Of a stretch of 8,918 bases of DNA, positions 1-8,918 are shown piece after piece. Below the pieces are notes generated by a model. It saw only the letters and a program-made list of their open reading frames with translations, was not told the DNA's origin and did no database searches. The position numbers and the translations under genes are program-made. This DNA is from Candidatus Zhuqueibacterota bacterium (GTDB taxonomy: Bacteria; BS750m-G25): NCBI GenBank assembly GCA_016783505.1, contig JADHWK010000077.1, positions 1 through 8,918 of the forward strand, read 5' to 3'. Position 1 is the first letter of the stretch, and every line of letters starts with the position of its first letter.

Positions 1-240
1 CTTCTCAATTCGCAATAGTGGAAGTAGAAACTCACGCCAATCATCAATAGAACCGTTCACCCCGTTTATCTCAAGCCCTTCGGGATCGTAATATATTTCC
101 AACTTCTCTTCACAACACCCACATTTCAAAAGATATCGCGGCATTTTCCTTCCCGAACCCTTTCTGTGGTAAACCCTGATCTGAGGATAACCATCTGGTC
201 TTGTGTAATAAAAGCGATTGGATCTCTTCAATATATTCAT
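1..240 (-). CDS. conserved Cys-rich hypothetical protein, C-terminus cut by window edge
   Basis: An uninterrupted frame of 80 codons starts at ATG 240-238 and runs off the left edge, so the protein is partial at its C-terminus. The N-terminal third is basic and aromatic (RSNRFYYTRPDGYPQIRVYHRK). A C-x-C-C cluster follows (residues 40, 42, 43), then an acidic stretch with LEIYYDPEGLEING and WREFLLPLL. The cysteines suggest a metal site, but one half of a possible zinc ribbon would be unusual on its own and the rest is missing. No ribosome site is clear; a GGGG lies about 10 bases upstream. It sits immediately downstream of attC 280-413, so it is the sixth cassette gene. I do not recognise a function. 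The smooth codon flow and typical cassette position support it being real. Confidence 0.65.
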   Translation of the reverse strand, partial: MNILKRSNRFYYTRPDGYPQIRVYHRKGSGRKMPRYLLKCGCCEEKLEIYYDPEGLEINGVNGSIDDWREFLLPLLRIEK

Positions 241-279: not shown

Positions 280-413
280 TCCTAACGAGTGAACTCACCT
301 GTGTGAGACTTTTGACCACCTTAGGTCTTAAATACCAAATCACCTTTCCCCAACCCTCAAAACTTTGAAATCACACTGAACGCTTTTCAAGTCCGGTGCA
401 GCGGGGGTTAGAA
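280..413 (-). other. attC site of the HEPN cassette (long, weak stem)
   Basis: Read on the minus strand, R'' is TTCTAAC (413-407) and R' is GTTAGGA (286-280). L-box pairing is weak: CACC at 296-299 against GGTG at 395-398, set 8-9 bases inside each core. A small extra hairpin (CTCAC 294-298 with GTGAG 303-307) lies in the R' half. R'' is the exact complement of the GTTAGAA that opens the HEPN cassette at 1276-1270, as expected when one cassette owns both. The weak stem makes it less certain than the other sites. Confidence 0.6.
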
Positions 414-434
414 TGCGCCATTTTATGACCAAAT

Positions 435-1226
435 TTAGGTAACCCCATACCTAACTTTAATTTCCTTCATTTCTTCTAATAGTATAGCAAAAGTGCGTCT
501 TTTAAAAATTTTGTCATTTTCATCCATCCCTACGATAGATGGTGTAAAAACTGTTAAAACTGGTACCCTATTTAGAGATTTATCCAATTTCCTCATTTCT
601 TCCAAAGCTTTATTTGCCCTTTCTTGGTTATAGAAATATATGTTTTTTAGTTCAGTTTTAAAGTCATTTCTTAGAACAATTATTACATCAAAAATTGTAT
701 CAACTACCTTTGAAGCAAAATTTTTGACTTCATCACTCTTTGGGATATATCCTTGATGTATAACTTTATTTCTGAATTCAATTATTTTAGTGTCCGGTGT
801 ATATTGTATTCCTGTCTCAGAAAGATAGTACATACAGAAAGCACCCAACTGTCTTTCAGACTGTTTTTTCAAATACTTCCAAGCTTTATCAATTTTCTCA
901 AGTTGTATACCTTTCTTATTTAATGCTGCGAAGATGAATAATTCATACAGTCTCTCTAAAGAACCCGCTATGCTTAAAACCGACTCAGAATGAAACCCTG
1001 CAAGGAATGCTAGAATACCTGATTCTAAAAGTATATCAAACCGATGTTTACTAAGGTATCCAATGGAAAGATGTCCACTATCACAGTGAAAAGAAGCAAA
1101 AAAATTGTCATCAATTTCAGCTATTACTTCTTGAACTAAATCAGATGAATATTTTCCAGTTTTTGGGATTAGACCTTCTTTTATCTTTTCATTGTAACAT
1201 ACTGGACAGGTTACCATAATTCTCAT
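435..1226 (-). CDS. zinc-knuckle plus HEPN-domain protein (candidate RNase/toxin or defence protein)
   Basis: The protein is about 263 residues. Numbering here is from the in-frame upstream TTG at 1238. The N-terminus holds CPVC (11-14) and HCDSGH (51-56), a likely zinc-binding knuckle. The rest is helical and contains an R-x4-H motif, FRNKVIHQGYIP at 155-166, followed by an amphipathic helix. This R-x4-6-H pattern with the trailing Q/K-G-Y-I-P turn is characteristic of HEPN domains, many of which are ribonucleases in toxin-antitoxin, CRISPR and abortive-infection systems. An earlier helix (SLERLYELFIFAAL) fits the first HEPN helix. No antitoxin or nucleotidyltransferase partner is adjacent. 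An extended -10 at 1250-1242 puts transcription start near 1235, which excludes the TTG. ATG 1226 or ATG 1217 is therefore the start; 1217 has a weak GAG upstream. The HEPN call is a motif inference; RNase activity and target are unknown. Confidence 0.75.
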   Translation of the reverse strand: MRIMVTCPVCYNEKIKEGLIPKTGKYSSDLVQEVIAEIDDNFFASFHCDSGHLSIGYLSKHRFDILLESGILAFLAGFHSESVLSIAGSLERLYELFIFAALNKKGIQLEKIDKAWKYLKKQSERQLGAFCMYYLSETGIQYTPDTKIIEFRNKVIHQGYIPKSDEVKNFASKVVDTIFDVIIVLRNDFKTELKNIYFYNQERANKALEEMRKLDKSLNRVPVLTVFTPSIVGMDENDKIFKRRTFAILLEEMKEIKVRYGVT

Positions 1227-1241
1227 ATTTAAGGTCAATAA

Positions 1242-1250
1242 ATTATATCA
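1242..1250 (-). promoter_or_regulatory. extended -10 promoter of the HEPN cassette gene
   Basis: The minus strand reads TGATATAAT, a perfect TGn-TATAAT extended -10 element. The region 17 bases upstream has no good -35 hexamer, which extended -10 promoters can tolerate. The predicted transcription start near 1235 leaves a leader of only about 9-18 bases before ATG 1226 or 1217. The element lies inside the cassette, just after the recombination core, so this cassette would carry its own promoter. Confidence 0.5.
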
Positions 1251-1269
1251 GTTATAATTTTCTGGCATA

Positions 1270-1338
1270 TTCTAACGTCTGAGCTCAGCCGCCCTTAGGG
1301 AGCGCAGCGGAGTAAGGGTCGGCTGCAGAGAGTTATTA
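1270..1338 (-). other. attC site of the 165-aa protein cassette
   Basis: On the minus strand, R'' is TAATAAC (1338-1332), overlapping the stop codon of the upstream gene, and R' is GTTAGAA (1276-1270). The stem is strong: CAGCCGCCCTTA (1286-1297) pairs with TAAGGGTCGGCTG (1313-1325). All bases pair except one extrahelical base at 1319. A 15-base GC-rich loop separates the arms. A single-base bulge in an otherwise paired arm is the strand-choice signature of attC sites. Confidence 0.85.
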
Positions 1339-1833
1339 GGCTTTATTATTCCATAGTTCCCATTCCCACTTAGCAATTGACTTCTTTCCTTTATGGCTAC
1401 GAATTTTAGTTATTACGTCTTTGTATTCCTTTATTGTTTTTAAATCAGTCCACTTACGAGTATCTTTAATTTCTTTTAACACGATTCGGTCAATAGGACA
1501 ATGTTTTGGCTTTTTTGCTTCATCTAAGCACCAAAGAAATTTAATGTATACATTTAATAGTTTTTGTGCAGTTCCAATTCTTAACTGGCCACCTTTTAAT
1601 TTTTCTCTGTGCGTGTTAGATATTGTTTGTGACAATTGTTGTATCTTATTTATGTGACTACTTTCAGAAACAGAATTAGTATAATTCTTTGCGATTTTCT
1701 TTAATTCTTCTTTGATGCTCTTTTTTAGTTCGGTTCGGTCTTTTTTGCTTAGATCTTCCGCGTAAACTTTTCCCCTTTGGAACGCTGCTTGGATTGTTCT
1801 TCCTATTATGATTTTTTCAATAAATTCATTCAT
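1336..1833 (-). CDS. conserved basic hypothetical protein (integron cassette)
   Basis: A 165-residue protein starting at ATG 1833. The first 80 residues are lysine-rich and predicted helical (KKDRTELKKSIKEELKKIAK at about 30-49). The centre carries the most distinctive stretch: GTAQKLLNVYIKFLWC at 87-102, then HCPIDRIVL at 111-119 and KWTDL at 127-131. Two cysteines and a histidine (102, 111-112) sit close together but do not form a standard zinc motif. There is no signal peptide or membrane segment. I recall similar cassette-borne hypothetical proteins with this central block but cannot name a function; nucleic-acid binding is a guess from the charge. The stop codon lies inside the R'' core of its attC. 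The ribosome site is weak, and AGGTATAAAAATT precedes the ATG. The reading frame is clearly real from length and position. Confidence 0.75.
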   Translation of the reverse strand: MNEFIEKIIIGRTIQAAFQRGKVYAEDLSKKDRTELKKSIKEELKKIAKNYTNSVSESSHINKIQQLSQTISNTHREKLKGGQLRIGTAQKLLNVYIKFLWCLDEAKKPKHCPIDRIVLKEIKDTRKWTDLKTIKEYKDVITKIRSHKGKKSIAKWEWELWNNKA

Positions 1834-1855
1834 AATTTTTATACCTAATGGATTA

Positions 1856-1911
1856 GTTCAACTGTCCGCCGGCTGCCAGGTCAGATGCAGCGGCGGGCTG
1901 GATTTTGCTAA
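1856..1911 (-). other. attC-like site of the HNH cassette (degenerate R'')
   Basis: On the minus strand R' is GTTGAAC (1862-1856), a perfect GTTRRRY. The stem pairs CCGCCGGCTGC (1866-1876) with GCAGCGGCGG (1887-1896), with one extra base at the G/C step. The expected R'' (RYYYAAC) is not present after the HNH stop codon; the place is filled by TTAGCAAAAT. Outer ATTAG/CTAAT pairing remains. The site is either divergent or damaged on one side. Confidence 0.6.
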
Positions 1912-2280
1912 TTAACTCCCTGTTTTATCCTTTCGTACATTTCCATTCCAGAATTCATGATAGCTATTTCTGGTTTTCATAACATATGGCTTCCGTTGGG
2001 CAACTAATTCCTCAAGAGTCATACCATCGAATTTGAGGCCTCTCTCCTCTGTTTTAACAAAATATTGATTATCTGCAACATTACAGAACATACAAGCAGT
2101 AACAATATAATCCGGATCGTCTCGTTTGGGATGCCCTTTTGGCAAAAGATGATCCCATGAAAGACTCAACCATGATGAGAATGATTCTGATCCATCTAGT
2201 CCGCAATAGATACATTTAAAGCCATCGCGTTTATGAATATAATAAGCATAACCACGTAATGCATCGTTAAACTTGGCCAT
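1912..2280 (-). CDS. HNH endonuclease (integron cassette)
   Basis: A 122-residue protein with a compact HNH nuclease layout. CIYC (23-26) forms the first zinc pair. WDHLLPKGHP (42-51) holds the catalytic D-H. CMFCN (63-67), followed by ADNQ, forms the second zinc pair and the Asn end. Such proteins cut DNA, usually nicking or making double-strand breaks with a divalent metal. The length is typical of stand-alone HNH proteins, and no methylase or specificity subunit lies next to it. The start is set by a good ribosome site, AGGAG, seven bases before ATG 2280. Neighbouring cassettes are functionally unrelated, so a role in phage defence or DNA processing is inference. The family call is strong; the target is unknown. 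Confidence 0.88.
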   Translation of the reverse strand: MAKFNDALRGYAYYIHKRDGFKCIYCGLDGSESFSSWLSLSWDHLLPKGHPKRDDPDYIVTACMFCNVADNQYFVKTEERGLKFDGMTLEELVAQRKPYVMKTRNSYHEFWNGNVRKDKTGS

Positions 2281-2308
2281 ATCTCATCTCCTACTTTATT
2301 AAACATAA

Positions 2309-2369
2309 ATCTAACGATTTGCATAACCGGCGCGGCGAAGCCGAGTCCGAGTTGATGCCCTGGTTAGGT
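2309..2369 (-). other. attC site of the zinc-ribbon cassette (canonical)
   Basis: The cores match consensus exactly: R'' ACCTAAC (2369-2363) and R' GTTAGAT (2315-2309) on the minus strand. GCATCAACTCGG in the R'' half pairs with CCGGTTATGC in the R' half when two bases (C and T) are left extrahelical. The centre is a GC-rich hairpin with a TTCG turn. At 61 bp it has the classic short attC length and is the clearest site in the window. Confidence 0.92.
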
Positions 2370-2791
2370 CACCTCATTTCTAACCATGATTTTCCTGACC
2401 ACTTTAATTGTGCACCACAATTATTTGTACATGATGCTATTGTGGGGTTTTCTTGATTGTTGACTATAAAACCTAAATTACACCAATGACATTTTCTATA
2501 AATGGAAGGGATATAATCTGGGTTTTCTTTTAGTAGATTAAAACCTACTGGATGAGATGTTTCTGTGTCTTTAGTAATCCTTTGTATATTTTCGATCATA
2601 AATTTCTTCGATTCTTTAGATAAATTACCAGGTAACTTGACTATTAAATTATTAATTCTCCTAAGTTGCTCTAACAGCATATTAATAGAGTCCTTTTGGT
2701 CGTTTAGAGAACGATGATAATAATATTTAGTAATAGCCCAACCAGCTATACTACCGACAATTAAAGTAAGCAATGTAAGCATTATTTCCAT
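2369..2791 (-). CDS. membrane-anchored zinc-ribbon hypothetical protein (integron cassette)
   Basis: About 140 residues from ATG 2791, or 145 from an in-frame TTG at 2806 (numbering here is from the TTG). The N-terminus is one hydrophobic helix (about 8-28, TLLTLIVGSIAGWAI) followed by KYYYHR, so the bulk should face the cytoplasm. A leucine-rich, probably coiled segment covers about 35-60. The C-terminal 45 residues carry CHWC (106-109) and CTNNC (126-130), a four-cysteine zinc-ribbon arrangement. No enzyme domain is visible. A TATAAT at 2824-2819 would start transcription near 2812, which favours ATG 2791, though a GGGA lies before the TTG. The stop codon overlaps the attC core. Function unknown; membrane-tethered sensing or binding is only a guess from the architecture. 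Confidence 0.75.
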   Translation of the reverse strand: MEIMLTLLTLIVGSIAGWAITKYYYHRSLNDQKDSINMLLEQLRRINNLIVKLPGNLSKESKKFMIENIQRITKDTETSHPVGFNLLKENPDYIPSIYRKCHWCNLGFIVNNQENPTIASCTNNCGAQLKWSGKSWLEMR

Positions 2792-2824
2792 AAAGATGAT
2801 GTTCAAATAATCCCGTTAATTATA

Positions 2825-2957
2825 GCCTAACGGCCATATTTGAGCAGCCGCCAGAATTATACAAATTACTCCTGTTAGTTCGCCAAACTTTTATAAGACC
2901 ACAAAATTCAAATATTTTACTAACTTGAGGCGGTCTGTCTCGAAATAATTGTTATAC
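2825..2957 (-). other. attC site of the lipoprotein cassette (long form)
   Basis: On the minus strand R'' is GTATAAC (2957-2951) and R' is GTTAGGC (2831-2825). The arms GAGCAGCCGCC (2842-2852) and GGCGGTCTGTCTC (2929-2941) pair perfectly if two bases, at 2934 and 2938, are extrahelical. The loop between them is about 75 bp and AT-rich. R'' complements GTTATAC at 3517-3511, the opening core of the lipoprotein cassette. Extrahelical bases, core complementarity and spacing all fit attC. Confidence 0.88.
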
Positions 2958-3013
2958 GCAACTTCTTGGATGCCTCGCGGTATATCTGCCATTACTTCTG
3001 CTTACTCCATAGC

Positions 3014-3487
3014 TCAATTGTTTGTATTAAAAATATGGTGAGTTACTTTCCAAGAACCCGCCTCTTTGCGAAGGATGTCTATGTACTTCCGATCCAACTT
3101 AATAGACTCACCTCCACTTTTTGGCATAATGGTCGCTATACCGCTGTACCTGTGGAAGGCCCAATCACCCAAAACTTGGATTTCATTCGACTGCCATGGG
3201 TTAAACTGGAATTTGTAGTTCTCAAAAAAGTCGGTTATGAAAGACTGGATCTTAGCCGTGCCCACAACCGCTGGTTGGCCAGAGTACATCATTACGGCTT
3301 CTTCTGATAAATGGTTCATATAACCTTCTACATCCCCTGACTCAGCTACCACGATAAGACCTATGAATACTGCCATTACGGCCTCTCGCTCGGCCTCTAC
3401 ATCGATAGAGCTTTTCTTAGAGACCTGACCACAGGCCATAATGATTATGAGGACCAACATCAAGCCCAACTGACTGGAAGCTTTCAT
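3014..3487 (-). CDS. SnoaL/NTF2-like (DUF4440-type) lipoprotein, first cassette gene
   Basis: A 157-residue protein from ATG 3487. The upstream in-frame ATG at 3502 overlaps the GGAGG ribosome site that serves 3487, so the shorter start is preferred. The N-terminus is a lipoprotein signal: a hydrophobic run ending I-M-A-C with the lipid-bearing Cys at residue 19. The mature part looks like the NTF2/SnoaL fold: an N-terminal helix (AEREAVMAVFIGLIVVAESG), then Y-M-N-H-L-S-E-E-A, a strand-rich middle (WAFHRYSGIATI) and a C-terminal WKVTHHIFNT. This ending resembles the usual 'W+I.H.H.S' of DUF4440 proteins. It would sit in the inner or outer membrane facing the periplasm. Many relatives are non-enzymatic binding proteins or steroid isomerase-like; none can be chosen here. 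It is flanked by inverted GTTATACGCAA cores that mark cassette ends. Confidence 0.8.
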   Translation of the reverse strand: MKASSQLGLMLVLIIIMACGQVSKKSSIDVEAEREAVMAVFIGLIVVAESGDVEGYMNHLSEEAVMMYSGQPAVVGTAKIQSFITDFFENYKFQFNPWQSNEIQVLGDWAFHRYSGIATIMPKSGGESIKLDRKYIDILRKEAGSWKVTHHIFNTNN

Positions 3488-3510
3488 TGGATTTTCCTCC
3501 ATTTTATTGC

Positions 3511-3566
3511 GTATAACATGGTTTTATACCGCACCATGTTATGACACCACTCACTGCGGTATAACA
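3511..3566. repeat. nested (A-B-A'-B') inverted repeats at the array entry point
   Basis: Two perfect 10-bp inverted repeats interlock. ATAACATGGT (3513-3522) pairs with ACCATGTTAT (3533-3542), and TTATACCGCA (3524-3533) pairs with TGCGGTATAA (3555-3564). Because the arms alternate, only one hairpin or a pseudoknot can form. GTATAACA occurs twice (3511-3518, 3559-3566). On the minus strand both copies read GTTATAC, the cassette entry core, and the 3517 copy is the left-hand crossover point. At under 60 bp with no extrahelical base it is not a normal attC. It may be an attI-like, minimal attC-like or operator element. Confidence 0.6.
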
Positions 3567-3677
3567 CTGCTCCTTACTGATGAACTTCTATTGAAAAAGC
3601 TTTTCTCGTCTCCGCCTAAAATCTCCGGCATTTGCAGGACAATATACTTGGATAATTTTTTGGATTGTTACATTCAC

Positions 3678-3767: not shown

Positions 3768-4475
3768 TCAGTTTATCCCCCTCATAAAGTTGGGAGAACC
3801 ATCAAAAGAAATATGACCATTCTTTATCACAATCACCCTTTGGGCTAAACGGGCCACCATTTCCAGATCTTGTGATATCAACAGAATGGTCCTTTGATCG
3901 GTATGATATTTTCTCAAAATCCCCTCGATTTTCTTCGTCCCCCCCCAATCCAGTCCCACCGTTGGTTCATCCAGGATCAAAAGTTCAGGTTCCATCACCA
4001 GAATACTGGCCAGGGCCACCCGGCGCTGTTCCCCGTAGCTTAGGGTGAAACAGGACCGCCGGACAAAGGAAACAAAGTCCAGTCCCACCATTTCCAGAGC
4101 GCGACGGATTTTTAAGTCCAGTTCACGATCATTCAAGCCGAAGTTCCGGGGTCCGAAGGCCACCTCGTCGTAAACGGAACCGGCGAAGAACTGGCTCTCC
4201 GGGAACTGGAAAGCAAGACCGATCCGGCGGCGAACATCCAAGATGTCCGCTTCCTTCCCGGCAATATTGATCCCATCCACCTTAACCACACCTTTCTGGG
4301 GTGTTAAAAGCCCGTTGAAGAGTTTCACCAGGGTGGTTTTCCCCGCCCCGCTGCGGCCCACCAGCCCCACGAATTGTCCCCCCTCAATGGTCAGGCTGAT
4401 CCCGTTCAGCACCGGATGCTCCCCTCCCCCAAAATCCGTATAAGCGAAATGAACGTCCTTAAGTTCTACTTTCAT
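3768..4475 (-). CDS. ecfA2: ECF transporter ATPase (EcfA/CbiO family), second of a pair
   Basis: A 235-residue ABC ATPase that would power an energy-coupling-factor importer for a vitamin or metal (the S component, not seen, would set the substrate). In order: Walker A GRSGAGKTT (40-48), Q-loop Gln90 in FQFPESQ, signature LSYGEQ (145-150), Walker B ELLILDEPT (164-172) and D-loop GLD (174-176). FQFPESQ and the overall length are typical of EcfA/CbiO rather than LptB-type ATPases. The switch loop reads LLISQDLEM, with Gln202 where a His is usual; the codon is CAA, checked in the bases. The signature Gly is Tyr (LSYGE). It follows its sister gene after a 234-bp gap, and an EcfT gene, usual in the next position, is replaced by the cassette array. 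The symbol reflects gene order only. Confidence 0.85.
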   Translation of the reverse strand: MKVELKDVHFAYTDFGGGEHPVLNGISLTIEGGQFVGLVGRSGAGKTTLVKLFNGLLTPQKGVVKVDGINIAGKEADILDVRRRIGLAFQFPESQFFAGSVYDEVAFGPRNFGLNDRELDLKIRRALEMVGLDFVSFVRRSCFTLSYGEQRRVALASILVMEPELLILDEPTVGLDWGGTKKIEGILRKYHTDQRTILLISQDLEMVARLAQRVIVIKNGHISFDGSPNFMRGIN

Positions 4476-4709: not shown

Positions 4710-5426
4710 TCATCCAGAAGGTACCCCAATTCCCCACTCCTTTAGTTGGGTTGAATGGTTAAACACCTTGCTGGGTTGATCGTCATAGGCGATCTTTCCC
4801 CGATGGAGAATCAGGAGGCGATCGGCAATAAGGGCTTCATCAGGATAGGGGGTGATAAAAAGGATGGCCATTTTCCCCTTCATTGAGAGCATAAATTTTA
4901 AAAAATCGTCCCGGTCCTGGGGGTCTAATAAGGTAGTGGGTTCGTCAAAGATTAACCCCGTTGGTTCCATGACCAGAACAGAGGCTAGGGAGAGCCGGCG
5001 CTTTTCCCCCCCGGAGAGCTGGCTGGGGGAACGGTGACGATGGTCTAACAACTGATAAGCGGATAGATGTTGTTCCACCTTTTCCCGCAATTTCACTGGC
5101 TCCACGCCCCTATTTTCCAGCCCAAAGGCGATCTCCTGCTCTACTGTCGGGGCTACAAATTGATGGTCGGGGTTCTGAAAGACCAGCCCTAACGACCCTT
5201 CGGGTTCCCTGGAGGGATCCACTAGATTACCGTTAATAAAAATCCTGCCGGACAGCGGGGTTAACAGACCCTTCAGCAGCAAAGACAGGGTGGTTTTCCC
5301 TGACCCGTTGGCCCCCATCAGGGCCACCCATTCATCTCCCCCAATATTGAATGAAAGCCCATCCAGAACCCGAATTTTTATCCCGTCCGTTTTATATTCA
5401 AAAATGAGGTCGTGAACGGCAATCAT
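4710..5426 (-). CDS. ecfA1: ECF transporter ATPase (EcfA/CbiO family), first of a pair
   Basis: A 238-residue ABC ATPase, the likely heterodimer partner of the following gene. In order: Walker A GANGSGKTT (38-46), Q-loop Gln84 in VFQNPDHQF (the classic EcfA/CbiO form), signature LSGGEKRR (137-144), Walker B TGLIFDEPTT (156-165) and D-loop LLD (166-168). The switch loop reads LFITPYPDEAL, with Pro193 where the family has His (ITH..DEA); the codon is CCC. The rest of the fold is intact, so this is not simple decay. The start ATG at 5426 has a weak ribosome site. Only 21 bases before it, the minus strand reads CGTTAGAATAT, a copy of an attC R' core seen at 1277-1267. Cytoplasmic, peripheral to the membrane. 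Confidence 0.85.
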   Translation of the reverse strand: MIAVHDLIFEYKTDGIKIRVLDGLSFNIGGDEWVALMGANGSGKTTLSLLLKGLLTPLSGRIFINGNLVDPSREPEGSLGLVFQNPDHQFVAPTVEQEIAFGLENRGVEPVKLREKVEQHLSAYQLLDHRHRSPSQLSGGEKRRLSLASVLVMEPTGLIFDEPTTLLDPQDRDDFLKFMLSMKGKMAILFITPYPDEALIADRLLILHRGKIAYDDQPSKVFNHSTQLKEWGIGVPSG

Positions 5427-5740: not shown

Positions 5741-6124
5741 TTAAAGCGTTATCCTTCCTTCTTTTTCCTCCCTCTCAATCCAATCCCCAATAACTGCTAT
5801 CACACCTTCTATATTGTTCTTTATATCAGAATCATAAAACCTTAAGAATTCTATGTCTTGTTTTTCGATTTCCCTCTGTCGTATCTTATCCCCTTTGAAC
5901 TTGTCTTTATGGCTGATGCCATCAATTTCAATCGCCAAACGGAGTCTGCTGCAATAGAAATCCCCCCATGTAATTCCCAATAGGTTTTTGCCGGGTGAAT
6001 TTATAGCCTTCTATCTGTCCTCCTTTGATCTGCATCCAAAGTAGAACTTCATATAAAGTGCCTTTCCTACGCAATTTTCTTGAGAGTGCTTTGAGTTTTG
6101 GTTGTAATAAATTTTCTTTAACAT
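5741..6124 (-). pseudogene. DUF559 (Vsr-like PD-(D/E)XK nuclease fold) gene broken by two frameshifts
   Basis: From ATG 6124 the frame reads MLKKIYYN, then shifts. Adding one base at 6100/6101 restores PKLKALSRKLRRK. Removing one G from the six-G run (C6 at 5962-5967 on the + strand) then joins RQKPIGNYMG to DFYCSRLRLAIEIDG. The repaired product is about 127 residues, the usual DUF559 size, with the conserved KPIGNY, D-F-Y and E-I-D positions of the nuclease core. The two shifts have opposite sign, so the first and last segments share a frame. Without repair, translation from 6124 stops after some 37 codons. The longer open stretch beginning at 6245 only reads through the G-run repeat and is unlikely to be the true start. 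Decay or homopolymer sequencing error are both possible; the six-G site could be either. Confidence 0.75.
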
Positions 6125-6130
6125 GTCTTA

Positions 6131-6206
6131 AACACCCCTCTTTTATTCCCCCCTTCTTAGGGGGGACTACCCCCCCTTTGTTCCCCCCTTTATATGGGGG
6201 GATGAC
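6131..6206 (-). repeat. right G/C-run repeat with two hairpins, upstream of the DUF559 pseudogene
   Basis: Two hairpins are visible: CCCCCC-TTCTTA-GGGGGG (6148-6165) and CCCCCC-TTTATAT-GGGGGG (6183-6201), separated by a C7 run (6170-6176). The segment 6131-6153, read on the minus strand, ends G-rich then GGGGTGTT, like the inner end of the left repeat (5702-5722). The right side looks like an expanded or duplicated version of the left. Confidence 0.65.
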
Positions 6207-6378
6207 CACCTTACTTTTCTCCGTCCATGAATATGAAATCTTCAAATCTCATTAAGATGAAAGAACTTTTGGAACCTTCGAGTACAGTTATCGAATATTT
6301 GATTACCCCCTCCAAATCCGGGATGACCTTATCTATTTTCATGCCTTAGTGTCTTTGTGGCTGGACTATTATGGTTTT

Positions 6379-7847: not shown

Positions 7848-8909
7848 TTAACCCTTTCTATTATCATTTTGATCTACCAATGATATAATATCTCGAACTG
7901 CAGCCAACCCCTCCTCTGCGGAAATGTCCGCCATGCATCGAAAATGCCCCCGGGGACAGCGGGTTGATCCCAGATGGGAACAGGGCCGGCAGGGGAGATC
8001 TTTTTGGAGAACCACACTCCGGATGCGGAAGGGGAAGAAACCAAACTCCTCTACCGTGGGACCGAAAAGGGCCACCACCGGTTTCTTTAGGGCGGCGGCC
8101 ATATGCATGATGCCGTTATCGTTGGTAACCAACAGGGTGCATTTTTCTACCAGGGCCCCGGTTTCCAAAAGATCTAATTTCCCGGATAGATTCATGGCAC
8201 TATTCCCGATGGCAACGGCAATCCATTCACAAAGGCCCCGTTCTTTCTCATTTCCAAACAGGATCAGGTTGGCATGATAATCTTTAATCAACCTTTTTCC
8301 CAGCCAGGTAAATCTTTCTTTGGGCCAGCGCTTGGTGGGATGACCAGCCCCGGGGGCCATTCCAATCAAGGGATCACCCGGGTTTAAGCCACCCTTTATG
8401 AGCTCCACCTCCGCCCTTTCCCGGCTCTCCTGGGGGATGAAGAATTCTAACCCCAGACCGTCATCCTCGACCCCAAAAGCCCTCACCGCCCTGATGTAAA
8501 TTAATGGTATGGAGGGGGAACTTCTGTAAAGGTTCAAACCAAAGGCCACCAATAGGAAGCGTCGCCACAACCCTTTGTGACTCTTGACTACCAGCCCGGC
8601 TCCGGAAAAATGCCGCAGGTAAACGGTGCGTAAATTTTTATGAATGTCCACCACCAGGTCATATTCCCTGTCCCTGATCGCCCGTTTTATCTCCTTTAGT
8701 CCATGCCAACCCGTTCGGGGTTCATAGGAATAGATATGATTGAGGCGAGGATTGTGACGTATTAATGGCTCAAACTGGTTTTTCACCACGAAATCTATTT
8801 CGGCACCGGAAAACCTTTGCCTGAGCACCCTCAACAGGGGGCTAGTCAATAAAATGTCCCCTATGGAACTTAAGCGAAGAATCAGAATTTTTTTGGGTGC
8901 TGTTACCAT
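7848..8909 (-). CDS. waaF: ADP-heptose:LPS heptosyltransferase (GT9, WaaF-like)
   Basis: A 353-residue GT-B glycosyltransferase of family 9, which adds L-glycero-D-manno-heptose from ADP-heptose to the LPS inner core on the cytoplasmic side. The N-domain opens with ILRLSSIGDILLTSPLL (10-26), the family's acceptor-side signature, then YDLVVDIHKNLRT (83-95). The C-domain has GMAPGAGHPTKRWPKERF (183-200), the usual nucleotide-loop region, and NDNGIMHMAAALKKPVVALF (263-282), the GT9 donor-binding hallmark, with N-D-N-G where N-D-S-G is common. A Cys-rich end (CRPC at 307-310, CP at 318-319, GHFRC at 321-325) matches the typical WaaF-type tail. The start at ATG 8909 lies only 9 bases from the window edge, so its ribosome site cannot be seen. 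WaaC or WaaQ are alternatives; I favour WaaF from the Cys-rich tail. Confidence 0.85.
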   Translation of the reverse strand: MVTAPKKILILRLSSIGDILLTSPLLRVLRQRFSGAEIDFVVKNQFEPLIRHNPRLNHIYSYEPRTGWHGLKEIKRAIRDREYDLVVDIHKNLRTVYLRHFSGAGLVVKSHKGLWRRFLLVAFGLNLYRSSPSIPLIYIRAVRAFGVEDDGLGLEFFIPQESRERAEVELIKGGLNPGDPLIGMAPGAGHPTKRWPKERFTWLGKRLIKDYHANLILFGNEKERGLCEWIAVAIGNSAMNLSGKLDLLETGALVEKCTLLVTNDNGIMHMAAALKKPVVALFGPTVEEFGFFPFRIRSVVLQKDLPCRPCSHLGSTRCPRGHFRCMADISAEEGLAAVRDIISLVDQNDNRKG

Positions 8910-8918
8910 AATAAATAT

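Follow-up and report, generated by a model that had tools for sequence, protein, structure and literature searches.

A partly decayed gene-cassette array without an integrase, lying behind two ecfA genes in a draft bacterial genome

The 8918-base stretch of DNA analysed here (the window), which is the complete contig C17 of the draft genome G000, carries a real, partly decayed gene-cassette array without an integrase. Such arrays are known as CALINs (clusters of attC sites lacking integron integrase), a term that comes from IntegronFinder (PMC9024848). The best explanation as a whole, to which we give a probability of roughly 0.8, is that the array was loaded in trans behind a pair of ecfA genes, is now a relic and begins at what is probably a diverged attI-type site. 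The host genome (89 contigs totalling 2.51 Mb, with completeness of 59.9% and contamination of 1.8%) is the sole member of its phylum in the comparison genome set, and the array thereby extends integrons to little-known bacteria.

On the minus strand the window reads, in this order, a heptosyltransferase gene, a Kdo transferase gene (waaA-like), two energy-coupling factor ATPase genes (ecfA) and an array of six ORFs. The ecfA pair are the upstream neighbours of the array, on the same strand, and the array starts 250 nt past the second of them; it is truncated by the contig end at position 1, and its 3' end lies beyond C17. The genes concerned are:

3768-4475 and 4710-5426, minus strand: two ecfA genes, best NCBIfam matches TIGR04521 and TIGR04520
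3014-3502, minus strand: cassette 1 ORF, 162 aa, SnoaL/DUF4440-like with a lipoprotein-type signal (Pfam DUF4440, 1.2e-6)
2369-2806, minus strand: cassette 2 ORF, 145 aa, with a predicted hydrophobic stretch at the N-terminus and cysteine pairs at the C-terminus; ORF call only
1912-2280, minus strand: cassette 3 ORF, 122 aa, HNH endonuclease-like (Pfam HNH, 3.2e-4, just under cut-off)
1336-1833, minus strand: cassette 4 ORF, 165 aa, no family assigned; ORF call only
435-1238, minus strand: cassette 5 ORF, 267 aa, no family assigned
1-240, minus strand: cassette 6 ORF, cut by the contig end

The gene ecfT was found once in the genome, on contig C89 next to truA, and not on C17. An Rfam search of the window gave no match above gathering scores, and a WaaA scan of genome contigs for close relatives returned two far ones alone (25-34% identity). 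Between the ecfA and waaA-like genes, at 5741-6245, lie two overlapping ORFs in different frames that resemble what may be one broken endonuclease-like gene.

Family searches with the cassette 2 ORF gave no confident family. When the HNH protein of cassette 3 was searched alone against 385 other genomes, a single one had a homologue, at 62% identity and in a different gene context; the cassette 5 protein has relatives at about 30% identity on Paenibacillus plasmids. An earlier sequence-only reading of this DNA had hinted at defence genes; for the window this hint is weak, coming down to the HNH nuclease-like ORF and one weak PADLOC match. The ends of several cassettes are complementary to each other, as expected if both ends derive from one circular attC: the SnoaL cassette (cassette 1), which starts with GTTATACGC and ends with GCGTATAAC, matches at 9 of 9 nt, the 267-aa cassette (cassette 5; start GTTAGAAT, end ATTCTAAC) over 8 nt and cassette 2 at 6 of 7. 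The ends of cassettes 3 and 4, both of which border decayed boxes, are not complementary.

Five attC or attC-like sites had been proposed between these ORFs:

2825-2957, minus strand: attC site E, 133 nt, with the boxes R'' GTATAAC and R' GTTAGGC and with three extrahelical bases
2309-2369, minus strand: attC site D, R'' ACCTAAC, R' GTTAGAT, 61 nt
about 1856-1915, minus strand: attC-like site C, decayed, with R' GTTGAAC and paired arms but lacking an R'' consensus
1270-1341, minus strand: attC site B, R'' decayed to GCCTAAT, R' GTTAGAA
280-413, minus strand: attC-like site A, weak, R'' TTCTAAC, R' GTTAGGA, 134 nt

They were scored in two ways. The covariance model R1 was trained on 26 trimmed attC sites taken from other integrons only, in order to avoid circularity; the sources were named plasmids with class 1 arrays, an array on a Gemmatirosa plasmid, and genomic integrons with full-length IntI. 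A second scorer took into account the boxes, their pairing, arms with L''-side bulges and lengths of up to 160 nt. Its null, 60 dinucleotide-preserving shuffles of the window, reached a maximum of 38.6. Across 94 kb of control contigs this scorer returned about five hits with a score of at least 36, and lone hits near 36-42 were not trusted.

Site D obtained 33.2 bits with R1 (E 4e-7 in the window and 1.2e-4 genome-wide) and 44.5 with the second scorer, above all 60 shuffled windows and second in rank to site E, which led with 46.9 against the shuffle maximum of 38.6. The L'' arm of site E, TTT(C)GAG(A)CAG(A)CCGCC, is fully paired with its L' arm GGCGGCTGCTCAAA and leaves three extrahelical bases on one strand. 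R1 gave no full-length match to site E, probably because the model is too short for a 133-nt site. Site B received 21.3 bits with R1 (E 5.7e-4 for the window, 0.16 genome-wide) and 34.8 with the second scorer; beyond D and B, nothing in the window rose above about 10 bits with R1. D and E show every feature of an attC site (R'' and R' boxes, paired L arms, an extrahelical base on the L'' side), B shows them with a decayed R'', and A and C show them in part. Sites D, E and B all lie in the orientation of the ORFs. Folding of the single-stranded DNA gave z values of -2.1 for D, -2.5 for E, -2.1 for B, -2.2 for C and -0.25 for A. The 29.0 that the second scorer gave to site A is inside background and its fold is no better than that of shuffles; what speaks for it is its position and the complementarity of the cassette ends. 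Site C, at whose R'' position GCAAAAT or similar stands in place of the expected RYYYAAC, was not scored by R1.

Three sites (B, D and E) are thus supported, and A and C are compatible with attC in position and orientation, at a level not above chance. The layout of six minus-strand ORFs described in the sequence-only reading stands with these three of its five sites. That reading had also credited D, B and E with core consensus, paired arms and extrahelical bases, which is right for D and E, while B is real with a decayed R''. The covariance-model check that it proposed, in which a score for none of the five would have spoken against it, found D and B with an independently trained model.

The usual definition of a CALIN depends on the lack of intI, and the window agrees with it: sites D, B and E lie within 1.7 kb, and the NCBIfam integron-integrase model TIGR02249 has no match on C17, up to the contig end that forms its left limit. 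The claim that the contig has no intI frame is therefore borne out. In a complete integron intI would stand beside the array, and here the ecfA genes occupy the 5' side. Throughout G000 the integron-integrase model found no match above cut-off. Partial matches below cut-off occur on C36, C82, C87, C62 and C59, with similar ones in 14 of 14 control genomes, and are taken as other tyrosine recombinases. A pseudogene with an internal deletion, on the plus strand of C44 (2866-3190), is the sole intI found in the genome. Its N-terminal part of about 54 residues is 68.5% identical to the nearest intact IntI found, and its conserved C-terminal part of 40 residues (90% identity) is joined to the former out of frame, about 200 codons between them having been lost. 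Given that the genome is about 60% complete and in 89 contigs, an intact intI may lie outside the bin, and may be absent from the bin and not from the organism. The attC scores and the lack of an adjacent intI uphold the earlier description of a cassette array beside an ECF pair, outside a textbook integron or the remnant of one, and the pseudogene fits the word remnant.

The window is one of several places in G000 where cassettes have accumulated. Over the whole genome, R1 matches at E 0.005 or better fall on C39 (three), C2, C13, C44, C53, C72, C73 (two) and C17, and the second scorer adds long attC sites on C72, C13 and C44 and on two new contigs, C30 and C37. Sites of this kind lie on at least seven contigs besides C17, some of them splitting conserved gene orders. 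With 10 R1 matches at E 0.01, G000 is second only to an intI-bearing genome with 16; of 58 other genomes used as control, 43 had no R1 match at this threshold. The clusters lie in or beside runs of housekeeping genes and on the same strand as these, the gene names being mostly read from the sequence:

C53: two cassettes between V-ATPase B and D
C30: clusters on both sides of glnS
C2: cluster upstream of dnaB; C2 is joined to C24 by a 139-nt overlap
C73: cluster after rplI
C44: attC sites at 8845-8916 and 10249-10378, downstream of the intI pseudogene on the same strand, then purB

Overlaps of 139 nt also occur between the end of C17 and the start of C73, and between the start of C44 and that of C89; the length equals an assembly word length, and such overlaps were taken as contig adjacency. 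The tails past the last attC, when compared across clusters, have no common sequence. Several clusters hold further items. A cassette on C44 (L101:7127-8916) encodes an SfiI-type restriction enzyme (Pfam 7e-88) and an N4/N6 DNA methylase and is followed by an attC; the whole of contig C39 (L095:1-6085) is an array with about five attC sites and mostly lipoprotein-like ORFs; and one array on C72 has two near-identical small cassette ORFs of 88 and 86 aa (L100:7348-7614 and 8906-9166), which suggests a duplication.

Eight cassette 5' boundaries have a block of about 54 bp in common, which ends at the G|TTA crossover where the first cassette begins. In it TTTTTATACGGCCTAAACGCCGTGTTATAACACGGCGTTTAGGC, a 34-bp palindrome that is nearly perfect, is followed by 12 nt (13 in one copy) and by the G|TTA. 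The copies are on C13 (two), C23, C30 (two), C37, C53 and C72, with a degenerate copy on C69; they end in GTTAG in C13a, C13b, C23, C30b, C37, C53 and C72 and in GTTAA in C30a. In seven of them a gene and an attC follow, and the C23 copy is cut by the contig end. Allowing up to 3 mismatches, a search for the block pattern found 13 strand matches in G000, a palindromic copy being matched on each strand. In 385 other genomes it found at most 2, compared with about 8 for the reversed control. No exact match to the palindrome was found in viral contigs.

Like attI, the eight blocks stand directly before a first cassette and end at G|TTRRRY. No intI match was found on any of the contigs that bear them, so that the adjacency to intI that marks an attI is lacking, and no copy of the block lies beside the C44 pseudogene. 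The block was compared by alignment with the sequences flanking intI in 13 integrons whose IntI is full-length, and contig C23 of another genome, G097 (L058), gave an end-to-end match at about 70% identity, scoring 52-58 for most blocks; none of 200 shuffles was as good for the block tested. The G097 block lies just upstream of an intact divergent intI and ends at GTTAG before the next gene, which is the position of an attI. The contig ends soon after it, and a first attC would lie beyond that end. Beside it, at L058:9150-9260, are two more copies of the short inverted repeat GCCGTCTAAGACAAAAATTTTGGATGTTAGAYGGC. Alignments of attI1 of class 1 integrons with the blocks were weak (p 0.008 to 0.74 by block) and are not used as evidence. 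From these comparisons we infer, on good grounds, that the dispersed blocks are attI-type sites without intI.

The 5' boundary of the window's array probably has a related structure:

3511-3575, minus strand: array 5' boundary, site F, with the crossover G|TT at 3517/3516 and the R' box GTTATAC (3511-3517)

Interleaved inverted repeats precede the crossover, with a hairpin z of -3.3. The block core GTGTTATAACACGG, allowing 3 mismatches, has three matches in the window, all of them in F (3534-3547, 3554-3567 and 3556-3569), where 0.53 would be expected in the whole window, a comparison weakened by having been made after the block was found. The best of them is GTGTCATAACATGG at 3534-3547, with 2 mismatches. 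Gapped alignment of F with the full block gives p of about 0.045, and other places in the window align equally well; the distance from core to crossover in F is 5 nt shorter than in the block. Boundary F is probably a diverged copy of the attI-type site.

We propose that the cassettes would have been inserted one by one, by an integron integrase acting in trans, at the G|TT 250 nt downstream of ecfA, and that the landing sites across the genome would be of attI type, or attG where no block is present. All cassettes of the window are co-directional with the upstream operon, and so are probably transcribed from it by read-through. Loss of intI would have frozen the arrays, the one in the window now being a relic, as suggested by two attC sites without an R'' box and by the pseudogene as the sole intI found. 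A wider reading, which we hold tentatively and at somewhat less than even odds, is that one lost integrase served at least eight scattered attI-type sites, every one of which followed a housekeeping operon and took up a separate array, the window's array being one of these.

Whether the landing sites were attI-type at all is questioned by an account in which the cassettes came to non-classical genomic sites (attG). Such insertion of cassettes into genomes was established experimentally by Loot et al. (2024, Nat Microbiol), as reported in papers citing that work (PMC12444791), and it resembles the present case in that cassettes lie among chromosomal genes and are readable from host promoters. 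Boundary F has no clear block copy, and the same is true of the clusters at C44, C73 and C2/C24. The attG sites are, however, described in the citing papers as very variable, whereas the block in G000 is long and conserved; its fixed crossover spacing at eight other cassette starts is unlike a loose genomic consensus, and the window boundary retains the block core. We consider the attG account somewhat unlikely.

The palindromic block might also be a dispersed repeat (REP- or MITE-like) and not an attI, a favoured landing place by chance. A near-perfect 34-bp palindrome in many copies would suit such an element, and C89 has a gene (1233-1676) that, by resemblance, may encode an IS200-like transposase. 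But the palindrome is just one part of the common block, whose end coincides with the crossover; at least seven of nine copies head a cassette followed by an attC, and the homologous G097 block adjoins an intact intI. We consider a mere repeat unlikely.

Quite improbable is the idea that the array is a split-off part of one ordinary chromosomal integron, broken by assembly, whose intI is merely outside the bin. CALINs are overcounted in most draft genomes for such a reason (PMC9024848), this genome is 60% complete, and the left end of C17 and the ends of several other array contigs fall inside arrays. The 5' end of the array, where intI would be expected, is nevertheless in the window and holds the ecfA genes; chromosomal genes flank several clusters on both sides (C53, C30, C72, and C44 before purB); and, given the 139-nt overlap of C73 and C17, three separate clusters lie among housekeeping genes within a stretch of about 23 kb. 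That the hairpins are ordinary terminators or repeats and form no array is hardly credible, since only A and C are no better than chance, while D, B and E score with independent models, in one orientation and between unrelated ORFs, the covariance model having refuted this reading for D and B.

The array taken alone belongs to a known kind, the CALIN, and the set of arrays headed by attI-type sites would be a variant of it. In RefSeq, CALINs and complete integrons occur at about equal frequency, and CALINs are common among draft genomes (PMC9024848). The present case differs from the typical one in that some attC sites have decayed and in that several other clusters in G000 start at a common attI-like block, as the window boundary may too. 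In Xanthomonas, dispersed CALINs have been described, and in many strains a deletion or frameshift has disrupted intI (PMC12444791); there as here the clusters lie at several chromosomal loci away from intI, and intI is inactivated, but for Xanthomonas a link was drawn to integration of the attG type or to ancestral activity, whereas the starts in G000 mostly have one long attI-like block. A Shewanella prophage has one CALIN with its own attI (PMC9892861), likewise an attI-type site heading an array without intI; that is one extra copy, as against at least eight dispersed copies in G000, where no intact intI was found.

Integrons are taught as a single platform with intI, one attI and one array. 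If the many attI-type sites are true, cassettes can be captured and expressed at places scattered along a chromosome, and an integrase can die and leave its cargo wired into housekeeping operons, which bears on how CALINs arise. Two other genomes of the comparison may hold related arrangements. In G026, the 3.2-kb contig C126 (L116) has four attC matches and an N-terminal fragment of IntI with a TGA stop, and is another relic integron. In the one-contig genome G057 (C1), with no full intI match, four attC matches lie far apart or in pairs, which makes it a further candidate for dispersed cassettes.
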